This document shows positions 27,978-36,458 of a DNA stretch of 64,000 bases, piece after piece. The translations under genes were made by a program, and so were the position numbers. Where the stretch lies: contig NZ_CP024314.1 of the NCBI RefSeq assembly GCF_002944315.1, positions 2,232,001-2,296,000 of the forward strand. The letters are read 5' to 3'. This DNA comes from Rhizobium sp. NXC24. GTDB taxonomy: Bacteria > Pseudomonadota > Alphaproteobacteria > Rhizobiales > Rhizobiaceae. The notes under the pieces were generated by a model. That model did not search any database, was not told the origin of the DNA, and saw only the letters and a program-made list of their open reading frames with translations. Numbering within the stretch: position 1 is the first letter of the stretch; every line of letters starts with the position of its first letter.

Positions 27978-29135
27978 TCAATCACCCACTCGCATCGCCA
28001 CATTGACGAGCATCCTGTCGGCGGTTCTTGCGCCAACCAAAGAAACCGAAGCGCTCTGGGCCGAACCGACGATTGGAACCGTCAGTTGCGGGCAACCGCT
28101 GAGGCCTGAGAGACAGAGAAACTTGATGCAGGTGGAGCGAAACGCAGCAAAGCTTTCCACCGTAGCATCACGCCTTGGTGGGCTCGTGGCCAATGTCGGA
28201 AGAGCGATAACGACGCCGTCGCCGAGCAATCGGTCGATCTCCCTCGAAAGGTTCTCTCGAACCCGGCGTGCCTCCCGCACCTCTTCCTCGCTCAGGCAAG
28301 ATCCTGCCAGAAGACGCGCGGCGATGTCGGGTGCGATAGACTGCGGACTTCGCTCGAAAAATAATTTGTTGCTTTCCCAGGCTTCCTTTTGGAGAATGGT
28401 GACGAATGCCAAAGCAAGCTCGTCCAAGCTGAGCGAGCTGATCGAGCCTACCTCACGAACGGGGATGGCAGCCGATCGAAGAAAGGCGATCAATTGGTCC
28501 GCCACGTCTTGGTCGACGCTGTCAAAGATATTCGCGGCTATCAGAACAGACGACGGCCTGTCGTCTACTGCGGGTATCCCGACTGCACTCATGATTGCGG
28601 CCATTGGCTCCAGGCTTCTCGTCATGAAACCGGGCACGTCGAAGCTCGGTGCCAGGGGGCGCAGCGCTCCGGTGTCGAGGCTTCCATGTGTTGGCCGCCA
28701 GCCAACGAGCCCGTTGACGGCGGCAGGCAGTCGGATGGAGCCGGAGGTATCCGTCCCGAGGCCGATATCCGCAAGGCCTGCAGCGACCGCGACGGCTGAA
28801 CCCGATGACGAGCCGCCAGGAATGATATCGGGATCGGAAGGATTGGTCGGCATGCCGAAATGGATGTTACCGCCGATGAGGGAATAGGCAAGTTCATCGG
28901 TATTGGTCTTGCCTATAAACCGGGCTCCCGCATCCAAAACCGTTTGCACTAGGGGTGCTGTCGATGTCTTGATGCCGGAGGCAGCGAGCACCGCGGCATT
29001 GCCGGCCGCCGTAGGATAGCCGGCGACGTCAAAAAGGTCCTTCACTGCGAGGCGAAGGCCGGAAAGCGGGCCGGCGGATGCGTGGCCGACATCTACCTGC
29101 GGATAGGGCATGAATGCATTCCACCGGTCCTGCAC
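27978..29135 (-). CDS. Amidase signature-family hydrolase
   Basis: A 385-residue amidase with the complete Ser-Ser-Lys triad region: Lys in LRLAVKDLFDVAG, the Ser pair in PGGSSSGSAVAVAAG, and DTSGSIRLPAAVNGLVGWRP. It hydrolyses an amide to acid and ammonia in the cytoplasm. The frame starts at a GTG with GGGAGCGG before it, 11 bp after LivF. It is the last gene of the amide operon. It is shorter than many amidases (about 450-500) because of a compact C-terminus. It may complete the breakdown of an amide formed or imported by the products of the genes upstream. Confidence 0.9.
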   Translation of the reverse strand: MQDRWNAFMPYPQVDVGHASAGPLSGLRLAVKDLFDVAGYPTAAGNAAVLAASGIKTSTAPLVQTVLDAGARFIGKTNTDELAYSLIGGNIHFGMPTNPSDPDIIPGGSSSGSAVAVAAGLADIGLGTDTSGSIRLPAAVNGLVGWRPTHGSLDTGALRPLAPSFDVPGFMTRSLEPMAAIMSAVGIPAVDDRPSSVLIAANIFDSVDQDVADQLIAFLRSAAIPVREVGSISSLSLDELALAFVTILQKEAWESNKLFFERSPQSIAPDIAARLLAGSCLSEEEVREARRVRENLSREIDRLLGDGVVIALPTLATSPPRRDATVESFAAFRSTCIKFLCLSGLSGCPQLTVPIVGSAQSASVSLVGARTADRMLVNVAMRVGD

Positions 29136-29146
29136 TTAACCGCTCC

Positions 29147-29854
29147 CTAGATCTTCAGATGCTGCAAGACACGGTTGCGGCTGTCTGGACCATTGGGGCT
29201 TTCGTCTTCGATCGCTCCAAGTTTGAGAATGGCCCAGCGGTCCGCCACGGAAAGGGCGAAGTCCAGGTTCTGTTCGACCAGCAGGATGGTCGTGCCGCGC
29301 TGCTCACGGTCGTGCCTCAGCGCTTTGGCAATGTTCTGTACGACAGAGGGCTGCAGGCCTTCGGAGATTTCGTCGATCAGCAGCAGCTTTGGCCGCAGCA
29401 TCAGCGCCCGCGCCAGGATCAGCATTTTCTGCTCACCCCCCGAAAGCGTGCCGGCCTTCTGGGGCAGCCGGTCCTTCAGAAACGGGAAATAGCCGTAGAC
29501 CCTCTCCAGCGCGGATGCCAGATCCCGATCGCCTTTGAGCGCGAGGCGCAGATTGTCGCGGATGGAGAGATCCTGAAACAACGGCAATTCTTGAGGTGCA
29601 TAGCCGATTCCGGAAGCGATTAGTTCCGCAGGCTTCCTGTCGATGATAACGGCACCATCGACCTCGATTGTACCTTTGCCGGCACGCAGGAAGCCGAGGA
29701 TCGTCTTCAGCAGCGTCGTTTTGCCCATGCCGTTCTTGCCCATGAGGGCAAAGATCTCGCCGGGCCGGATGGCGAGCGACACGCCATTGACGACATCGAC
29801 CGCGCCATATCCGCTCGATACGCCGCTGAGCTTGAGTTTGAACGCGTCAGCCAT
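29147..29854 (-). CDS. livF: Branched-chain-type ABC transporter ATP-binding protein LivF
   Basis: A 235-residue ATPase of the LivF type. Walker A GKNGMGKTT (about 37-45), Q-loop APQELPLFQDLS, signature LSGGEQ near 136 and the Walker B region LLLIDEISEGLQP are visible; the Ile-Ser-Glu-Gly-Leu sequence is typical for LivF. The ATG at 29854 lies 8 bp inside the preceding fused gene and is preceded by GGAGG. It works with the LivM-LivG fusion and LivH. The substrate here is probably an amide or urea-like compound, not an amino acid. Confidence 0.92.
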   Translation of the reverse strand: MADAFKLKLSGVSSGYGAVDVVNGVSLAIRPGEIFALMGKNGMGKTTLLKTILGFLRAGKGTIEVDGAVIIDRKPAELIASGIGYAPQELPLFQDLSIRDNLRLALKGDRDLASALERVYGYFPFLKDRLPQKAGTLSGGEQKMLILARALMLRPKLLLIDEISEGLQPSVVQNIAKALRHDREQRGTTILLVEQNLDFALSVADRWAILKLGAIEDESPNGPDSRNRVLQHLKI

Positions 29855-31604
29855 GGGCGCCTCCTGCGTAGATGGTGCGAACCGTTTCGGAATTGACCAC
29901 GTCATTCACCGTGCCGTCGAGAACAAGCTTGCCTTGGTGGAGAACCACGATGCGGCTCGATATGTCACGCACGAAATCGAGATCGTGTTCCACCAGGATG
30001 GCGGCGAAACCCATCTCGTCCGTGAGTTTCTTGAGGATGGCGCCGATGGTCATGCGCTCGGTCTTGGTTAGGCCCGCAGTCGGCTCGTCGAGCAGAATGA
30101 TGCGTGGCTCCAGAGCTACGACCATCGCCAGCTCGAGAGCCTGCCTTTGACCGTGCGACAGTAGCGAGACCGGTTTGTCCAGCATGTCAGCCATGCCGGT
30201 GAGCATCAGGATCTCGGCCGCAGCAGCCGGCAGCACGATCTCGGCGGACGAGCGCATCGGGTTGGGCGTCTCACGGCTGAGACGCGCCATCTTCAGGCAT
30301 TCGCCGATGGTCATGCTGTCGAAGATGCTGGCGACCTGAAATTTCCGGCCGACACCGAGGGCGACGATCCGTTCGGGTGAACGACCAGCGATATTCGTAC
30401 CGATGATATCCACTTGACCTTCGATCTCTTGGGTACCGTCCGACAGACAACGCATCAGAGTGGTCTTGCCGGCGCCGTTCGGGCCGACCAGGCTGACGAG
30501 TTCTCCGGCGCCGATTTCAAGGTCGATGCCCTTCAGCACGGATAAGCTGCCATAGGACTTGCCGAGACCGCGGATCGACAGAAGGCTTCCGCCTGCCAAC
30601 CCACCATTCTTGGCGACGATGCGCGTCGGCAAGGGCTTCAAAGTGCTGTTGGAGTTTGCGGACTGCAGGAAACGCGTCACCAAGGAGGCGAGGCCGCCCG
30701 GCAAAAGGATGATCATGACGACGAAGAGCGCACCGACGATCAGTTGCCACAGGAAGGGTAGATCGCCCGACAGGCTGGCGCTCAGATAATCGATGCCGAT
30801 TGCGCCGAACAAGGGCCCGATGATTGTTCCCCGACCACCAAGCGCCGTCCAGACGACGAGTTCGGTTCCGAATACGAACCCGGTGTTCTCGGGCGCGACG
30901 ACACCGGACGCATTGGCATAGAGGAAACCCGCAAGGCCACATACGCCGGCAAGAACGCCGACCAGGACGATTTTCGTCCGGGCGGGGTTCATGCCCAGAT
31001 AGGCGACGCGGGCTTCATTGTCGCGGATTGCAGCGAGCAGACGGCCGGCGTCCGACCGGACAAAGACGATCCCAAGAACAGCCAAAGCCAGCAAGCAGGT
31101 GCCCGATAGGCGAAAATAGCCGGAAAGCCCGAGCGGGAGAGTTTCGTAACCGACGAGGCCGCTCGAGGAGCCGGTCCAGGTACCGCCCGAAAAGACGAGC
31201 TGTGTAACGACGATCGGCACAACGAGCGAGATCACGGTGGCATAGAGCGGTGTCGATCCGTGATAGAACGACAGCCAGCCGACCGCGAGACCAAGCAGGA
31301 GCGGAACGAGCACGGCGGCGACAAGGGCGACGACGAAAAGCGCCGGGCTTGCGCCAATATGGGTGAGAACCATGGCGGTGGCATAGGCGCCGACGCCAAA
31401 GAATGCCGCCTGCCCGAAGGTGAGAACGCCCGTATAGCCCCACAGCAAATCGACGGTGATCGCCAGCATGGCGTAAATCATCGAACGCGTGAGGACGTTG
31501 AGGCTGAAGCGGCCGAGGAACATCGGTCCGAAAGCGATCAGCAGAAGTGCTGCAGACGCCAGCGCCAGCAAAAGAACAAGCCGGAGTTTCTGTTTGTCAG
31601 GCAC
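29847..31604 (-). CDS. Fused LivM-LivG protein (permease plus ATPase)
   Basis: A 585-residue protein that joins two normally separate subunits. About residues 1-320 form the LivM permease, with multiple helices and the motif GYTGVLTFGQAAFFGVGAYA. After a linker rich in Ser and Asn, residues from about 345 form the LivG ATPase, with Walker A GPNGAGKTT near 373, signature LSHGQ near 480 and Walker B IILLDEPTAGL near 505. The GTG start at 31604 overlaps the end of livH by 8 bp. No frameshift or stop separates the halves, so the fusion is real in this sequence. Confidence 0.92.
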   Translation of the reverse strand: MPDKQKLRLVLLLALASAALLLIAFGPMFLGRFSLNVLTRSMIYAMLAITVDLLWGYTGVLTFGQAAFFGVGAYATAMVLTHIGASPALFVVALVAAVLVPLLLGLAVGWLSFYHGSTPLYATVISLVVPIVVTQLVFSGGTWTGSSSGLVGYETLPLGLSGYFRLSGTCLLALAVLGIVFVRSDAGRLLAAIRDNEARVAYLGMNPARTKIVLVGVLAGVCGLAGFLYANASGVVAPENTGFVFGTELVVWTALGGRGTIIGPLFGAIGIDYLSASLSGDLPFLWQLIVGALFVVMIILLPGGLASLVTRFLQSANSNSTLKPLPTRIVAKNGGLAGGSLLSIRGLGKSYGSLSVLKGIDLEIGAGELVSLVGPNGAGKTTLMRCLSDGTQEIEGQVDIIGTNIAGRSPERIVALGVGRKFQVASIFDSMTIGECLKMARLSRETPNPMRSSAEIVLPAAAAEILMLTGMADMLDKPVSLLSHGQRQALELAMVVALEPRIILLDEPTAGLTKTERMTIGAILKKLTDEMGFAAILVEHDLDFVRDISSRIVVLHQGKLVLDGTVNDVVNSETVRTIYAGGAHG

Positions 31605-32430
31605 GGGCAAATCCTTTCGGACGTATGCGCAATGTGACTGCGCAGAGGACGGCGACGGTGATGCCGCCGAGGATCGGACTGAAATAGGTGCTGACGAGCA
31701 CCTGAGCGGCGCCGAAGATGAGACAGGCGGCGGCAAGCGCGCCGAAAGAAGAGCACGCGACCATCACCAGCATGAAGGCGCCGGTCAGCCAGGCGACGCC
31801 CATATTGGGATCGACGCTGGTCAGCGGCGCGAGCAGCACGCCTGCAAGGGCGGCAAGGCCGGTGCCGATCATGAAGGTTGCGAGCCGCACCTTTTCGGTG
31901 TCGATACCGAGCCCGCGCGCCAGCGTTTCGTTCATGATGACTGCCCGCGCGGAAAGACCAAGCCTTGTCCCATCGAGCAGCAAGGTGAAACCGAGACCCA
32001 GACCGATAGCCGCCGCAATGGCGAAAAGGCGGTAGGCCGAGTAGCCGATGCCGAAGAGATCGAAGGTGCCGGGCAGCAGAGCCGGTGTGAACTGCACATC
32101 GCGACCAAACCAAAGCGTGATCAGTTGGCCGATGACGATGCCTAGCCCCCAGGTTGCAAGAATGGCGTCGAGCGGTCGTCGATAAAGAGGCCGCACGATG
32201 AACCGTTCGGCAACGCCGCCGAGGATCGCTCCGACCAGAAATGCGAAAGGAATGGCAAGCCATGGATTGAGGCCGAATCCGCTGACGACGACGGCGCAGT
32301 AAGCCCCGATGGTCAGCCATGCGCCATGCGCGAAATTGATGATCTTCAGCACGCCGAAGATCGCAAGCAGCCCGGCGGCAACGATGAAGAGAATGGCCGC
32401 GGTACTGACGATATCGAGAAAGAGGGTCAT
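31597..32430 (-). CDS. livH: Branched-chain-type ABC transporter permease LivH
   Basis: A 277-residue permease with about eight hydrophobic segments. Typical stretches are GLLAIFGVLKIINFAHGAW and ILATWGLGIVIGQLITLWFG. GGAG lies just before the ATG at 32430; the frame is open upstream to 32496 without a site. It overlaps the fused LivM-LivG gene, so translation of the two is coupled. It is the partner permease to the LivM half. Confidence 0.92.
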   Translation of the reverse strand: MTLFLDIVSTAAILFIVAAGLLAIFGVLKIINFAHGAWLTIGAYCAVVVSGFGLNPWLAIPFAFLVGAILGGVAERFIVRPLYRRPLDAILATWGLGIVIGQLITLWFGRDVQFTPALLPGTFDLFGIGYSAYRLFAIAAAIGLGLGFTLLLDGTRLGLSARAVIMNETLARGLGIDTEKVRLATFMIGTGLAALAGVLLAPLTSVDPNMGVAWLTGAFMLVMVACSSFGALAAACLIFGAAQVLVSTYFSPILGGITVAVLCAVTLRIRPKGFARA

Positions 32431-32480
32431 TTCTGGAACTCCGATGCTGGAGGCGGGGGCCCTGCCCCGCCCCGCTGATT

Positions 32481-33629
32481 TCAGAGGTTCGGGCACTGAT
32501 CGCCAGGATCGACGTCTTTGAAGCTATCGACGACTGCAACGCTGCCGTCGTTCTTTACCTGGCCAAGATACATCGTCAGCGGCGCATGGTGCTGCTTGTT
32601 CATGGAGATCTTGCCGCGCGGACCGGTGAAGGATACGTCGGGAAGAGCCTTGAGCACATCCGCCGTATCCGTGCTGCCGGCCTTCTCGACGGCTGCTTTG
32701 TAAAGGTAGATCGCCTCATATTGCGGCACGGAAAGATCGTTCGGCGTTCGCAGTTCCTTGCCGAATTTCTTTTCCATGGCCGAGAGGAACGCCTTGTTTT
32801 CAGGGCTGTCGATGCCGGTGACGTAGGAGGCGGAGAGGAAGATGTCCTTGGCATCCGCGCCCATGCTCTTGGCGGTGCCTTCGTCGACCGCGAGATTGCC
32901 GTAAGGCAGGGTGACGCCGGAGGAGCGCAACTGCTTGGTCAAGGTCACGTTCGGTGCGCCGCCGGCCGTCGAGGTAATGATGGCGTCGGCGCCGGAGGAG
33001 CGGACCTTGGAGATGATGGCAGTCCAGTCGCTGCCGTCCATCGGCAGATATTCCTCGCCGACGACCTGAGCGCCGGCTTTTTCGATATAGCCTTTGGCGA
33101 AGGTCAGCATGCCGCGTCCGAAAGCATAATCCGAACCGATCAGGAAGAACTTCTTTGCGCCCTGTTTGCTGATGAAATTATCGACGACAGGCGGCACCTG
33201 CTGTTCTGGAACCCAGGCATCGACGAAAAGCTTGGCGTTGCAGGATTTGCCTTCGTAGAAAGACGTGTAGATATACGGCACGTCACCCTTGGAAATGATC
33301 GGCAGTCCGGCATTGCGTGCAGCGCTCGTTTCCATGGAGATGACGACGTTCACCTCTTTCTGGAAGACCAGGGAATCGAAGGCCTTTTGTGCGCCGGCCG
33401 CCCCTGATGCGTCGTCGGCGATCTCGAGCGCCAACGGCCGCCCGAGCACGCCGCCTTTGGCATTGATTTCTTCGACGGCGAGTTCGGCGGCTTGGACGAC
33501 GGACGGTGCGACGACGCTGTTGGCGCCTGACAGCCCCACCGGCACGCCGATCTTGATTGGATCCTCGGCGAAAGCTGCGGTGGCGAATGCCGCGGATGCC
33601 AGTGTCAGGATGATGGTTTTCATTTGCAT
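32481..33629 (-). CDS. ABC transporter substrate-binding protein, LivK/AmiC-like
   Basis: A 382-residue periplasmic binding protein with signal peptide MKTIILTLASAAFATAAFA. The fold is that of family 4 binding proteins (IKIGVPVGLSGANSVVAPSV, VEEINAKGGVLGRPLALEI). It resembles proteins annotated for urea or short-chain amides, and shares the general plan of AmiC encoded upstream in the same operon. It delivers the substrate to LivH and the LivM half. Two Met codons near the start (33629 and 33623) are both possible. Confidence 0.9.
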   Translation of the reverse strand: MQMKTIILTLASAAFATAAFAEDPIKIGVPVGLSGANSVVAPSVVQAAELAVEEINAKGGVLGRPLALEIADDASGAAGAQKAFDSLVFQKEVNVVISMETSAARNAGLPIISKGDVPYIYTSFYEGKSCNAKLFVDAWVPEQQVPPVVDNFISKQGAKKFFLIGSDYAFGRGMLTFAKGYIEKAGAQVVGEEYLPMDGSDWTAIISKVRSSGADAIITSTAGGAPNVTLTKQLRSSGVTLPYGNLAVDEGTAKSMGADAKDIFLSASYVTGIDSPENKAFLSAMEKKFGKELRTPNDLSVPQYEAIYLYKAAVEKAGSTDTADVLKALPDVSFTGPRGKISMNKQHHAPLTMYLGQVKNDGSVAVVDSFKDVDPGDQCPNL

Positions 33630-33659: not shown

Positions 33660-34505
33660 TTATCCGTAGACATCGGCTCGGCGGTCGCCGAGCAGATGAT
33701 TGAAGCTGTTAAGCGTGCGGGTTTCCGTGACGCTCGACAGATCGATTTGTGCAAGGAGGATTTCCTCGCGATCGGCACTGGCCGGACCGGACACGGGCCA
33801 GCCTAGCGGGCCGACGATAAGGCTGCGGCCGATGAAGGTCTGGCCGCGCTCAATACCGATCCGGTCGGCGCAAGCGATATAAAGGCCATTGGTGTGGGCG
33901 GCCGCCTTGTGCAGGATATTGGCCATCGGCTCCGCAGCGCTTTCCGCCCCGGCCATCGGTACCCAGTTGGTGGGCACGCAGACCAGTTCCGCGCCGGCCA
34001 GCGCCAATTCGCGAAACGTTTCCGGAAACCACCCGTCATAGCAGATGGCGATGCCGATGCGGCCGAAGGGCAGGTCAAATACCGGCAGCCCGATATCACC
34101 TTTTCCGAAAAGACGGTTTTCGTTGTTCCACAGATGGAGCTTGCGGTATTTGCCGATATATCCCTCGGGACCGCAGAGAAGAGCGCTGTTGTAAAACCGG
34201 CCGCCATCCTGCTCGGCAACGCCGCTGACGATATAAAGGGCAAGCTCCGCGGCAAGGCGGCAGAGCGTCTCGGCGCTCGGGCCGCCGGGTACCGGGCCGG
34301 CCAATGCGGCAACCTCGTCGCCGTCACGGAAGTTATAGCCGCTGTCGGCCAGTTCCGGCAGAACGATGATTTCTGCGCCCTTGGCCTTCGCTGCCCTTGC
34401 CAGCCGCTCGATGGCTGCGAGGTTATGGGCGCGATCGCCGACGATCGGTTCGAACTGGACGGTTGCGACGGTTACCGTCCGCGCGGTCGAGGTCTTGATG
34501 CTCAA
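33660..34505 (-). CDS. Carbon-nitrogen hydrolase (nitrilase superfamily)
   Basis: A 281-residue hydrolase with the Glu-Lys-Cys triad: Glu in IIVLPELADSGYNF, Lys in YRKLHLWNNE and Cys in IAICYDGWFPETFRELA. It would hydrolyse an amide, nitrile or carbamoyl compound. The TTG at 34505 is chosen because GGAG lies 5 bp upstream; the frame opens at 34523. The gene lies directly after an intrinsic terminator, so its expression and that of the transporter downstream depends on read-through. It is the first structural gene of the amide operon. Confidence 0.9.
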   Translation of the reverse strand: MSIKTSTARTVTVATVQFEPIVGDRAHNLAAIERLARAAKAKGAEIIVLPELADSGYNFRDGDEVAALAGPVPGGPSAETLCRLAAELALYIVSGVAEQDGGRFYNSALLCGPEGYIGKYRKLHLWNNENRLFGKGDIGLPVFDLPFGRIGIAICYDGWFPETFRELALAGAELVCVPTNWVPMAGAESAAEPMANILHKAAAHTNGLYIACADRIGIERGQTFIGRSLIVGPLGWPVSGPASADREEILLAQIDLSSVTETRTLNSFNHLLGDRRADVYG

Positions 34506-34521: not shown

Positions 34522-34561
34522 AAAAAACCTCTGGCACGGAATTCAATCCGTGAACCAGAGG
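34522..34561 (-). terminator. Intrinsic terminator in the leader before the nitrilase gene
   Basis: Read leftward, CCTCTGG, TT, CACGGA, a 6-base loop, TCCGTG and CCAGAGG form a 13-bp stem interrupted only by a two-base bulge, followed by six T's. The T tract ends 16 bp before the nitrilase start. A terminator placed directly before a gene and after its regulator points to antitermination control. Confidence 0.82.
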
Positions 34562-34582
34562 CTACATAGCCATGATGTGAAT

Positions 34583-34613
34583 GCGGCAGCCCTGCCGCTG
34601 AGCAAACCTGCTC
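34583..34613 (-). promoter_or_regulatory. Tandem hexaloop hairpins, probable ANTAR (AmiR) target
   Basis: On the transcribed strand two hairpins stand one base apart. The first is GAGC-AGGTTT-GCTC. The second is GCGGC-AGGGCT-GCCGC. Each can be drawn with a six-base loop beginning with A; the second also has G at loop position 4. Known ANTAR substrates are two short hairpins with hexanucleotide loops in which A1 and G4 are conserved, just before a terminator. The first loop has T at position 4, a departure. The AmiR gene ends 86 bp upstream. Confidence 0.65.
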
Positions 34614-34699
34614 GTTATCTTTAGGCTTGCACGAAAGAATGGGACCGTCAAGCCGCTTTATCGGGCTTTTTCAAAAGGTGCGTAGATACAGCTAAGGGT

Positions 34700-35323
34700 T
34701 TAAATTTGAGGTTTTCCGCCGATGGACAGTCCAAGGCTTTTCATGGTGTCCTGCGCGGCGATGATGGATTCGGCGATCGTCGCCATCGGAACACGCTTTG
34801 ACGTCGCCTGATCGCGCAAGAGCTTATAGGCCGCGTCCTCGTCGAGACCATTCATGACCCGCAGCGCCGAAACGGCTTTTTCGACCAGCCGGCGACTTTT
34901 CAACGTTTCCTCGAGTTTCTGCACCTTACCGGCGAGTCGCTTTTCGTAACTTTGCCGATAGCGTGCAAGCGCAAATTGCGTCAGAATGCCGAGCGGCCGC
35001 AGCGGTTTGCTGATAACGCCGTGGGCGTTGAGGTCGATGATCGCCTGGAGTGCTGTCGGGCTCTCATATGTCAGGATGGCGATGACCGCCGTCTGCTGGA
35101 GGTCGATGATCTCAAGCGCGTGCTCGACATGGACATCCTCGACATGCAGGAAGACGGTGTCTACGTCGGGAGGCAAGGCGGGCGGAAGCGGCCAGGTCGC
35201 CCGAACCTCGCAGCCAAGGCGCTTGAGATGGGCGATCAGCAAGTTGCCGTCCTCGTCGCGCGGATGGACAACCAGAACGCGTGCGCGCCGCAAATCCTGA
35301 ATAATCCGGCTCGGTCCCGCCAT
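34700..35323 (-). CDS. amiR: AmiR-type ANTAR antitermination regulator
   Basis: A 207-residue protein. The N-terminal half is a response-regulator-like fold without the usual phospho-acceptor Asp set (ARVLVVHPRDEDGNLLIAHL), as in AmiR. A coiled-coil (KVQKLEETLKSRRLVEKAVS) leads to the C-terminal ANTAR domain, with AVSALRVMNGLDEDAAYKLL and a final helix. ANTAR domains bind RNA hairpins and prevent termination. Its stop and the terminator leader of the nitrilase gene lie next to each other. AmiR is held inactive by AmiC until an amide binds. Confidence 0.9.
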   Translation of the reverse strand: MAGPSRIIQDLRRARVLVVHPRDEDGNLLIAHLKRLGCEVRATWPLPPALPPDVDTVFLHVEDVHVEHALEIIDLQQTAVIAILTYESPTALQAIIDLNAHGVISKPLRPLGILTQFALARYRQSYEKRLAGKVQKLEETLKSRRLVEKAVSALRVMNGLDEDAAYKLLRDQATSKRVPMATIAESIIAAQDTMKSLGLSIGGKPQI

Positions 35324-35324
35324 C

Positions 35325-36458
35325 TCAGGCCTCCAGCCAAACGTCTTCGAACCGCGAAGCCGTCAGATACGGGTCCGGCCGGATCGGTCCAGGCGCTTGC
35401 CAGGCAATGTCGAAAAGCCCGTCGGCCCGCGCCACGCCGATGCGGGGGTGCAGCCATAGATGACGGGTATCGGCGTCGAAATTGATGCGACCTTCCGGAG
35501 CAAGAAAATCTTCCAGGAGAATTTCCTCGGAAATGCGATGGGTATCGAGCGAGCCGGCCCGGGCAAGCGCTCGGGCGAACAGGTGAACCTGCGCATAGGC
35601 CGGTTGCGACCACACGCTCGTGGTGAAGTCCTGGCCGAAACGGGCTTTGAACGCCGCTACGAAACGCTCGTTCGCCTCGTTTTCGACCGTCTGGAAATAA
35701 GTCGCCGAAAGAATATGGCCGGTGCAAGCGTCGGCTCCAATCTCGCGAATCTCGCTCTCGGCCATGGTCAGACTGGCAATCGGAACCCGCCTTCGATCGA
35801 TTCCCGCCTCGGCATACATGCGGTAAAAACGCTGCGCCGGCCGCCCGATGAGCGTCGAGAAGATGGCATCGGGCTCGAGACGAACGATATCGGAAATAAC
35901 GGAACGCAGCATTTGCTCGTCGGCATGGAGAGGAAGATATCGCTCGCTGACGACTTCACCGCCCTTTGCCTCCACCACATCCCGCATGACCCGATTGGAT
36001 TCGCGCGGATAAATATAGTCCGCTCCGACGAAGAGGATCCGGCGTCCATGGTTGCGGAGCAGGTATTCCGCGAGCGCGAAGGTGTTCTGATTGAGCGTGG
36101 CGCCGGTGTAGATCACATTCTCCGAATACTCGAATCCTTCGTACATCGAGGGATAAAACAACAGCCCGTTATGCCGCTCGACAATCGGCAGCACGGCTTT
36201 ACGGCTGGCCGACATCGACGCGCCGAAGATGATATTGACGTCGTCGTCGGCCAGGAGGCGCCGCGCCAGATTGCGATAGGCAGTTTGATCGCCGCCCGGA
36301 TCATAGGCGATCGGAACGATGGGCTTGCCAAGCACGCCTCCGGCCGCGTTGACCTCTTCGATCGCAAGCGCGGTGCCAAGAAAGTGCTCGGTTTCCGTGA
36401 TTTCGCTGATTCCGCTTCTGGAAAACAGCACTCCCACCCGCCATTCGGAGCTTGTCAT
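35325..36458 (-). CDS. amiC: AmiC-type amide-sensing negative regulator
   Basis: A 377-residue protein with a periplasmic-binding-protein fold but no signal peptide, so it stays in the cytoplasm. It starts WRVGVLFSRSGISEITETEH and continues with GTALAIEEVNAAGGVLGKPI, as in AmiC of Pseudomonas, which binds short amides and releases AmiR. The stretch LLFYPSMYEGFEYSENVIY is also typical. It is the first gene of the operon, one base pair before amiR, with GAGG before the ATG. The ligand is unknown but probably similar to the substrate of the co-transcribed importer. Confidence 0.91.
   Translation of the reverse strand: MTSSEWRVGVLFSRSGISEITETEHFLGTALAIEEVNAAGGVLGKPIVPIAYDPGGDQTAYRNLARRLLADDDVNIIFGASMSASRKAVLPIVERHNGLLFYPSMYEGFEYSENVIYTGATLNQNTFALAEYLLRNHGRRILFVGADYIYPRESNRVMRDVVEAKGGEVVSERYLPLHADEQMLRSVISDIVRLEPDAIFSTLIGRPAQRFYRMYAEAGIDRRRVPIASLTMAESEIREIGADACTGHILSATYFQTVENEANERFVAAFKARFGQDFTTSVWSQPAYAQVHLFARALARAGSLDTHRISEEILLEDFLAPEGRINFDADTRHLWLHPRIGVARADGLFDIAWQAPGPIRPDPYLTASRFEDVWLEA

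Follow-up and report, generated by a model that had tools for sequence, protein, structure and literature searches.

On the minus strand of the window (the whole 64,000-nucleotide stretch of Rhizobium sp. NXC24 DNA that was analysed), a sensor gene, its partner regulator gene, a short leader and a set of hydrolase, transporter and amidase genes follow one another. The genes, in the order in which they are read, are the following.

35325..36458, minus strand: amiC-like sensor gene (Peripla_BP_5/6; Pfam E 2.2e-127; PDB AmiC 1qnl/1pea, E 1.4e-89)
34700..35323, minus strand: amiR, with an AmiR_N pseudo-receiver and an ANTAR domain (Pfam AmiR_N E 1.3e-34, ANTAR E 1.6e-13); the leader follows it
33660..34505, minus strand: CN_hydrolase gene (nitrilase superfamily), TTG start at 34505, GGAG at 34515-34512 (Pfam E 7.2e-56)
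32481..33629, minus strand: substrate-binding protein, UrtA/HAAT-like (profile matches)
31597..32496, minus strand: permease, UrtB-like (profile matches)
29847..31736, minus strand: permease fused to an ATPase, UrtC- and UrtD-like (profile matches)
29147..29905, minus strand: ATPase, UrtE-like (profile matches)
27978..29135, minus strand: amidase-signature amidase (Pfam Amidase E 1.7e-56)

The Pfam and PDB matches bear out the original prediction that AmiR with an ANTAR domain is encoded just upstream of the leader and AmiC before it. The amiR product matches AmiR 1qo0_D in the PDB (E 2.4e-24) and belongs to the AmiR family by its scores of 118.9 bits for PF21332 and 50.6 bits for PF03861 (curated cut-offs 27 and 27.3). 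The AmiC-like protein also matches urea-binding proteins such as 8hic (E 2.1e-60). The Pfam search for the CN hydrolase used the ORF read from 34523; in close relatives, the match starts with the first residue of the protein read from 34505. The best NCBIfam model for the amidase, NF006169, gives 381.4 bits, under its cut-off of 391. The UrtC-like permease and the UrtD-like ATPase form a single reading frame. The named loci with the most similar AmiR number 13, of which 12 are from Rhizobium and one is from Neorhizobium; the gene order from amiC to the second ATPase is kept in all 13, the amidase is matched in 12 (a limit set by the stored flank), and an M20 gene lies further upstream in seven. 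The amiC-like gene adjoins amiR in 13 of 13 loci (L004-L016). Three ANTAR proteins were found in this genome. By my own reading of the names, one of the other two is a NasT-like protein followed by a NasS-like protein (L001, G000:C4:1534278-1537436), and the second is AmiR-like and follows an AmiC-like gene (L003, G000:C4:65844-68999). The latter frame runs into the beginning of an alpha/beta-hydrolase-like frame, which leaves no room for a leader between the two. In the same numbering, the window is G000:C4:2232001-2296000.

The leader, about 95 nt long, contains the following elements, listed in the direction of transcription.

34623..34651, minus strand: candidate leader promoter, inferred from TTGACG (34651-34646), a spacing of 17 nt and AAGCCT (34628-34623)
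34600..34613, minus strand: P0, extra hairpin GAGC-AGGUUU-GCUC (sequence and fold)
34583..34598, minus strand: P1, hairpin GCGGC-AGGGCU-GCCGC with an A1/G4 loop (sequence, fold and comparison)
34572..34582, minus strand: P1-P2 linker, 11 nt (sequence)
34560..34571, minus strand: P2, antiterminator hairpin GGC-UAUGUA-GCC (comparison and folding)
34526..34563, minus strand: intrinsic terminator stem, 9 + 6 pairs with a UU bulge (fold)
34522..34527, minus strand: run of six T's, whose first two overlap the stem base and which ends 16 nt before the TTG at 34505

The original prediction had described two adjacent hairpins with the loops AGGTTT and AGGGCT, the second loop obeying the A1/G4 rule and the first having T at position 4, followed by a 13-bp stem and six T's ending 16 bp before the nitrilase start. 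All of these letters are in place; the two hairpins are P0 (34613-34600) and P1 (34598-34583), and the stem is the 7 + 6 bp core of the terminator (34561-34528 with the UU bulge), which a G-U and an A-U pair extend to 34563-34526. As to the six-base loops, six letters lie between the arms in both, but the predicted fold shuts P0 and P1 to tetraloops via a pair between loop positions 1 and 6. This 1-6 pair is also formed in the predicted fold of P1/P2. The 92-nt leader folds at -41.4 kcal/mol against -26.5 +/- 3.1 for shuffled sequences (n=200), none of which was as stable. If the candidate promoter is used, transcription would be expected to start near 34616; its -10 element is weak. A consensus scan reported no sigma-70 promoter and did not call this terminator, presumably because of the UU bulge, and the single site that it scored as terminator-like is a stem on the plus strand at P0. 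In Rfam, the window has no match at the gathering threshold, and at E up to 10 it gives just weak, unrelated matches far under threshold.

It was revealed by folding that a third hairpin, missed in the original prediction, competes with the terminator. The terminator stem opens with four bases that also belong to P2, namely the loop base A34563 and the 3′ arm. In the growing transcript, P2 has a computed pairing of 0.97-1.00 up to a 3′ end at 34530; this drops to 0.29 with the end at 34528 and to 0.01 with the end at 34526, when the terminator arm is being completed. The terminator form was computed at -41.2 kcal/mol and the form with P2 and the upper stem at -37.9 kcal/mol. In these folding models, P2 and the finished terminator are mutually exclusive, as is the second hairpin of an ANTAR target with its intrinsic terminator. 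The dual-hairpin criteria taken from the available part of PMC8164766 (two hairpins of at least 3 bp with six-base loops, joined by a linker of 2-25 nt) compare with 5 bp in P1, 3 bp in P2 and a linker of 11 nt here. Both loops have G4 (AGGGCU and UAUGUA), while A1 is found in P1 and U1 in P2. Since A1 is absent at P2, the leader is filed as a variant of the ANTAR-target RNAs and not as a textbook member; according to the available text of PMC8934654, EutV makes no specific contact to A1. The pair recognised by AmiR is almost certainly P1 and P2. The original prediction had paired its hairpins one step too far upstream and therefore saw the terminator as separate from the second hairpin, which is true only of that mis-paired set. 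With P1 paired to P2 and with P2 and the terminator exclusive, both of its oddities vanish. The A1/G4 rule by itself can pair the wrong hairpins; terminator overlap and linker length choose correctly.

Is this arrangement common among the relatives of this AmiR? The relatives were collected from sets of 394, 385, 398, 148 and 347 genomes (family, class, phylum, genus and order, respectively, which overlap) and from a genome-contig scan. These overlapping searches gave 139 loci, cited below by L numbers; 138 of them matched AmiR and 125 have a distinct downstream sequence. Loci whose downstream hydrolase is at least 55% identical to that of the window are called CN-hydrolase-type. At the place of EutV Met172, the residue is Thr in the window AmiR by alignment, in all 42 CN-hydrolase-type loci and in L057, and in the other 82 loci it is Met (78), Leu (L031 and L119) or Gln (L027 and L026). 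P1-P2-terminator triples were picked by geometry and energy, blind to the loop letters, with all terminators scanned. An earlier pick had been sorted by G4 and was hence biased, so the letter-blind picks were used for the G4 claim; a rule that took the strongest terminator went wrong where terminators stand in tandem, and the full scan replaced it.

These rules gave a triple for 41 of 43 Thr-type and 37 of 78 Met-type loci, and none for the remaining two Thr-type and 41 Met-type loci. G4 is present in 31/41 P1 and 39/41 P2 loops of the Thr-type picks and in 35/37 P1 and 33/37 P2 loops of the Met-type picks. It is missing from ten of the 41 Thr-type P1 loops, and the P2 loops of L081 and L083 are irregular. 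U1 in P2 is near-universal in the Thr clade (A1 in 1/41 P2 picks) and occurs in 10/37 Met-type P2 loops. Of 63 picked leaders, 51 have P1 and P2 separated by 8-12 nt, with the search allowing 6-15. No triple lies behind the four AmiR proteins with Leu or Gln (L031, L119, L027 and L026), which are candidates for a changed reading of RNA. Seven Met-type leaders (L042, L044, L045, L051, L128, L132 and L135) have two adjacent leader-model matches each (E about 1e-5 to 0.02), which look like two P1-P2-terminator modules in tandem before the next gene.

Covariation was assessed in 17 aligned CN-hydrolase-type leaders, L025 left out. Two-sided changes were found at 9 of 26 pairs, against a shuffle mean of 4.1 with none of 500 shuffles as high, and against 1-4 for slid structures. 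Related sequences can beat shuffles without any structure, so that the slid control and the G4 result weigh more. Neither the four pairs of P2 nor the four lowest terminator pairs have a two-sided change, in the 17 leaders as well as in an 18-row count. That 18-row count (12/26 pairs, four of them in P0) was replaced since two of its P0 pairs came from a misplaced L025 row; in the 18-row alignment, L025 is out of place at P0 and L081 at P2. The closing pair is C-G in 17/17 leaders for P0, 17/17 for P1 and 16/17 for P2. In the genus set, this AmiR (protein E <= 1e-60) is present in 17 of 148 genomes, and leader model R1 (E <= 0.01) finds one leader in each of the same 17, matches that are expected since R1 was trained on this leader group. 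The informative part is the absence of the leader from the other 131 genomes, and joint inheritance would give that too. Further AmiR targets elsewhere in the genomes were not found at E <= 0.01 with stricter filters, which could miss weak targets, and each genome gave one match. The test attached to the original prediction, namely a lack of conservation of the hairpins in related leaders, was thus run and did not refute the switch.

The Thr at the place of Met172 may be connected with the shape of the loops. The available part of PMC8934654 describes Met172 of EutV as essential, with the exclusion of tetraloops by it merely suggested. Met is also found at that place in the other matching PDB ANTAR proteins (AmiR 1qo0, 1s8n and NasR 4akk) and, by my own reading of the alignments, in both of the other ANTAR proteins of this genome (NasT-like and AmiR-like). 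The residues of EutV that contact G4 (R142, E160 and Y164; the residue numbers in the paper are two lower than in the PDB chain) are R, E and Y in the window AmiR, again by my own reading, which agrees with the retained G4. Watson-Crick partners occupy loop positions 1 and 6 in 41/41 P1 and 39/41 P2 loops of the Thr group, against 8/37 P1 and 13/37 P2 loops of the Met group, where no leader (0/37) has them in both loops. With near-identical rows removed, the Thr group retains 26/26 for P1 and 24/26 for P2, and its P1 pairs are 23 A-U, two U-A and one C-G. The control positions 2 and 5 are partners in 13/26 P1 and 11/26 P2 loops of this reduced Thr group and in 10/37 P1 and 9/37 P2 loops of the Met group. 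Thus, the excess of partners is greatest at positions 1 and 6, although it is not wholly limited to them.

Tentatively, this AmiR clade may have swapped for threonine the methionine plug suggested to confine ANTAR domains to hexaloops, while its targets became tetraloops with a covarying 1-6 pair and P0 became a loading site at the 5′ end. If so, the switch would be an ANTAR antiterminator with three sites that reads tetraloops, and nature would have supplied a test of loop-size choice. An inherited accident accounts for the 1-6 complementarity with about an even chance; here the complementarity would be unrelated to Thr, and the loops would open to hexaloops when bound. On the AmiR tree, the Thr/Met split takes one change (SH-aLRT 85), and with a single evolutionary event, common descent by itself could account for the link between Thr and the loops, so the association is a lead and not a proof. 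The tree was made by a quick method with no bootstrap and excluded 15 near-identical Rhizobium rows, L137, L138, L139, L003, L058, L061 and two short ones. The accident is also in keeping with the computed gain from the 1-6 pair of a mere 0.9-1.2 kcal/mol and with the 1-6 partners of the Met-type P2 loops. Against it, the letters at positions 1 and 6 change together within the clade (A-U, U-A and C-G in P1; A-U, U-A and, in L025, G-C in P0). In the available parts of the literature on ANTAR hairpins, tetraloops and methionine and on Rhizobium AmiC-AmiR, neither this leader nor a tetraloop-reading ANTAR protein was recognised. For the choice of loop by ANTAR domains, this rhizobial clade is of interest in that the change affects the protein as well as the RNA.

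P0 is a trait of the same clade. To count as P0, a hairpin had to lie next to P1, to have a stem of 4 bp or more with no mismatch and to enclose six loop bases; the P1 positions were those of the G4-sorted pick, with P1 placed by hand for L081, L055 and L080. Of 42 CN-hydrolase-type leaders, 36 have P0, against two of 43 other AmiR leaders with a placeable P1, with shuffling giving about 2%; P0 is not judgeable where P1 was not placed, that is, in two of the 42 CN-hydrolase-type and 40 of 83 other leaders. After removal of 18 near-identical Rhizobium/Neorhizobium rows, the count is 18 of 24 CN-hydrolase-type leaders. P0 is absent from L087, L056, L089 and L090, while P1 is unplaced in L088 and L028. 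In the 17 aligned leaders, the P0 stem is paired in all, which is not a prevalence, since the rows of the alignment (18 with L025) were chosen by hand for having P0, and two of its five pairs have changed on both sides. One inner pair goes from A-U to G-C in six leaders (about three tree groups) and the 1-6 pair has changed in one, L083. The P0 of L025 (AAGCU/AGCUU) is in a different register. Of the 36 P0-bearing leaders, 28 have a TTG[AC]C box at a distance of 35-39 nt ahead of P0, and 18 of these 28 are the near-identical Rhizobium/Neorhizobium rows. A promoter at this box would make P0 the 5′-terminal element of the RNA.

What P0 does may be read in two ways. The favoured one is that P0 is an added AmiR loading hairpin of this clade, which is the weakest step of the proposed mechanism. 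Nearly as likely, and ranked slightly lower, is that P0 is unrelated to AmiR binding and protects or positions a short leader transcript as a 5′-end hairpin, to which I would give somewhat less than an even chance. P0 would begin about 3 nt from the expected transcript start, as suits such a protector, and its loop mostly lacks the G4 that EutV needs according to the available text of PMC8934654. However, P0 resembles P1 in its C-G closing pair, in its six-base spacing and, mostly, in A1; A1 and G4 together are found in the P0 loops of L055, L085 and L086, and P0 is limited to one AmiR clade, all of which speaks against the protector.

It is very unlikely that AmiR instead binds P0 and P1, with no terminator overlap needed and with GGC-UAUGUA-GCC being merely the terminator base. 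In favour of this pair, the two hairpins lie side by side, are stable and show some paired changes, but they are only 1 nt apart; in the available part of PMC3369931, the linkers of the eut leaders are 5-12 nt and shortening to 3 nt drastically cut induction. Moreover, 41 of the 43 other AmiR leaders with a placed P1 and the four clade members named above have no P0, while P2 retains its G4 in both the Thr-type and the Met-type picks. Equally improbable is a plain end-of-operon terminator of amiC-amiR, the hydrolase operon being run otherwise with no RNA regulation: terminators between gene sets are common, and one inherited with its neighbour gene would also match AmiR in the same 17 of 148 genomes, yet the sole promoter-like site noted lies upstream of the terminator, and loop G4 and spacing are kept about the terminator base across the AmiR relatives.

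Taken together, the leader is very probably a transcription attenuator controlled by AmiC and AmiR ahead of the CN-hydrolase, ABC-transporter and amidase genes. Thus, of the antitermination proposed in the original prediction, the switch itself is upheld by the comparison, while its choice of hairpin pair is not. RNA polymerase would start downstream of amiR and make P0, P1 and P2 in turn. When no inducer is present, AmiC may hold AmiR, as in Pseudomonas aeruginosa; the last bases of the 3′ arm of the terminator would then displace P2, and transcription would stop. When an inducer is present, AmiC may bind a small amide- or urea-like ligand and free AmiR, whose ANTAR dimer would grip P1 and then P2. 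With P2 held, the base of the terminator would be blocked and the CN-hydrolase, ABC-transporter and amidase genes would be read. P0 may raise the capture of AmiR at the 5′ end of the nascent RNA, although this is the least secure part.

The closest known system is the AmiC-AmiR/amiE system of P. aeruginosa, which shares both regulators (the best PDB matches being 1pea/1qnl and 1qo0) and also serves amide metabolism. The amiE leader is described in the available part of PMC3369931 as a terminator with two A1/G4 hairpins, the second of which can pair with the terminator. Compared with that description, the Rhizobium leader differs in its target (a CN hydrolase and an UrtABCDE-like transporter), in its third hairpin and in U1 of P2, and the Rhizobium AmiR has Thr in place of the Met of P. 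aeruginosa AmiR. In general, ANTAR targets have two hairpins, the second overlapping a terminator (PMC3369931 and PMC7496416, as far as their available text goes). The eut leaders of Enterococcus faecalis resemble the Rhizobium leader in their paired small hairpins, in G4 and in a second hairpin that lies in the terminator stem (available parts of PMC3369931 and PMC8934654), and the P1-P2 linker of 11 nt falls within the eut range. On the other hand, those sources describe EutV as a phosphorylated response regulator with no AmiC control, with an essential Met172 and with targets of two hairpins having A1 in both loops. The nasF leader of Klebsiella oxytoca is alike in its two-hairpin target, in the C-G closing pair found by NasR SELEX and in the A1/G4 preference; NasR differs in that its nitrate sensor is fused to ANTAR, and the available part of PMC7496416 mentions no third hairpin.

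Extra hairpins are known from two other ANTAR-bound RNAs. The EutX/rli55 RNA has a dual hexaloop motif and an extra single hexaloop, although, in the available account of PMC8934654, it is a small RNA that sequesters EutV and has G4 in the extra loop, and not a leader whose extra hairpin abuts P1. In Mycobacterium tuberculosis, the PPE1-5′ RNA, which is bound by the ANTAR regulator PdtaR, has three predicted hairpins like the Rhizobium leader; it differs by its action in trans about a start codon, and the available part of PMC8131098 describes no terminator switch for it. Thus, a third hairpin in an ANTAR-bound RNA has precedent.
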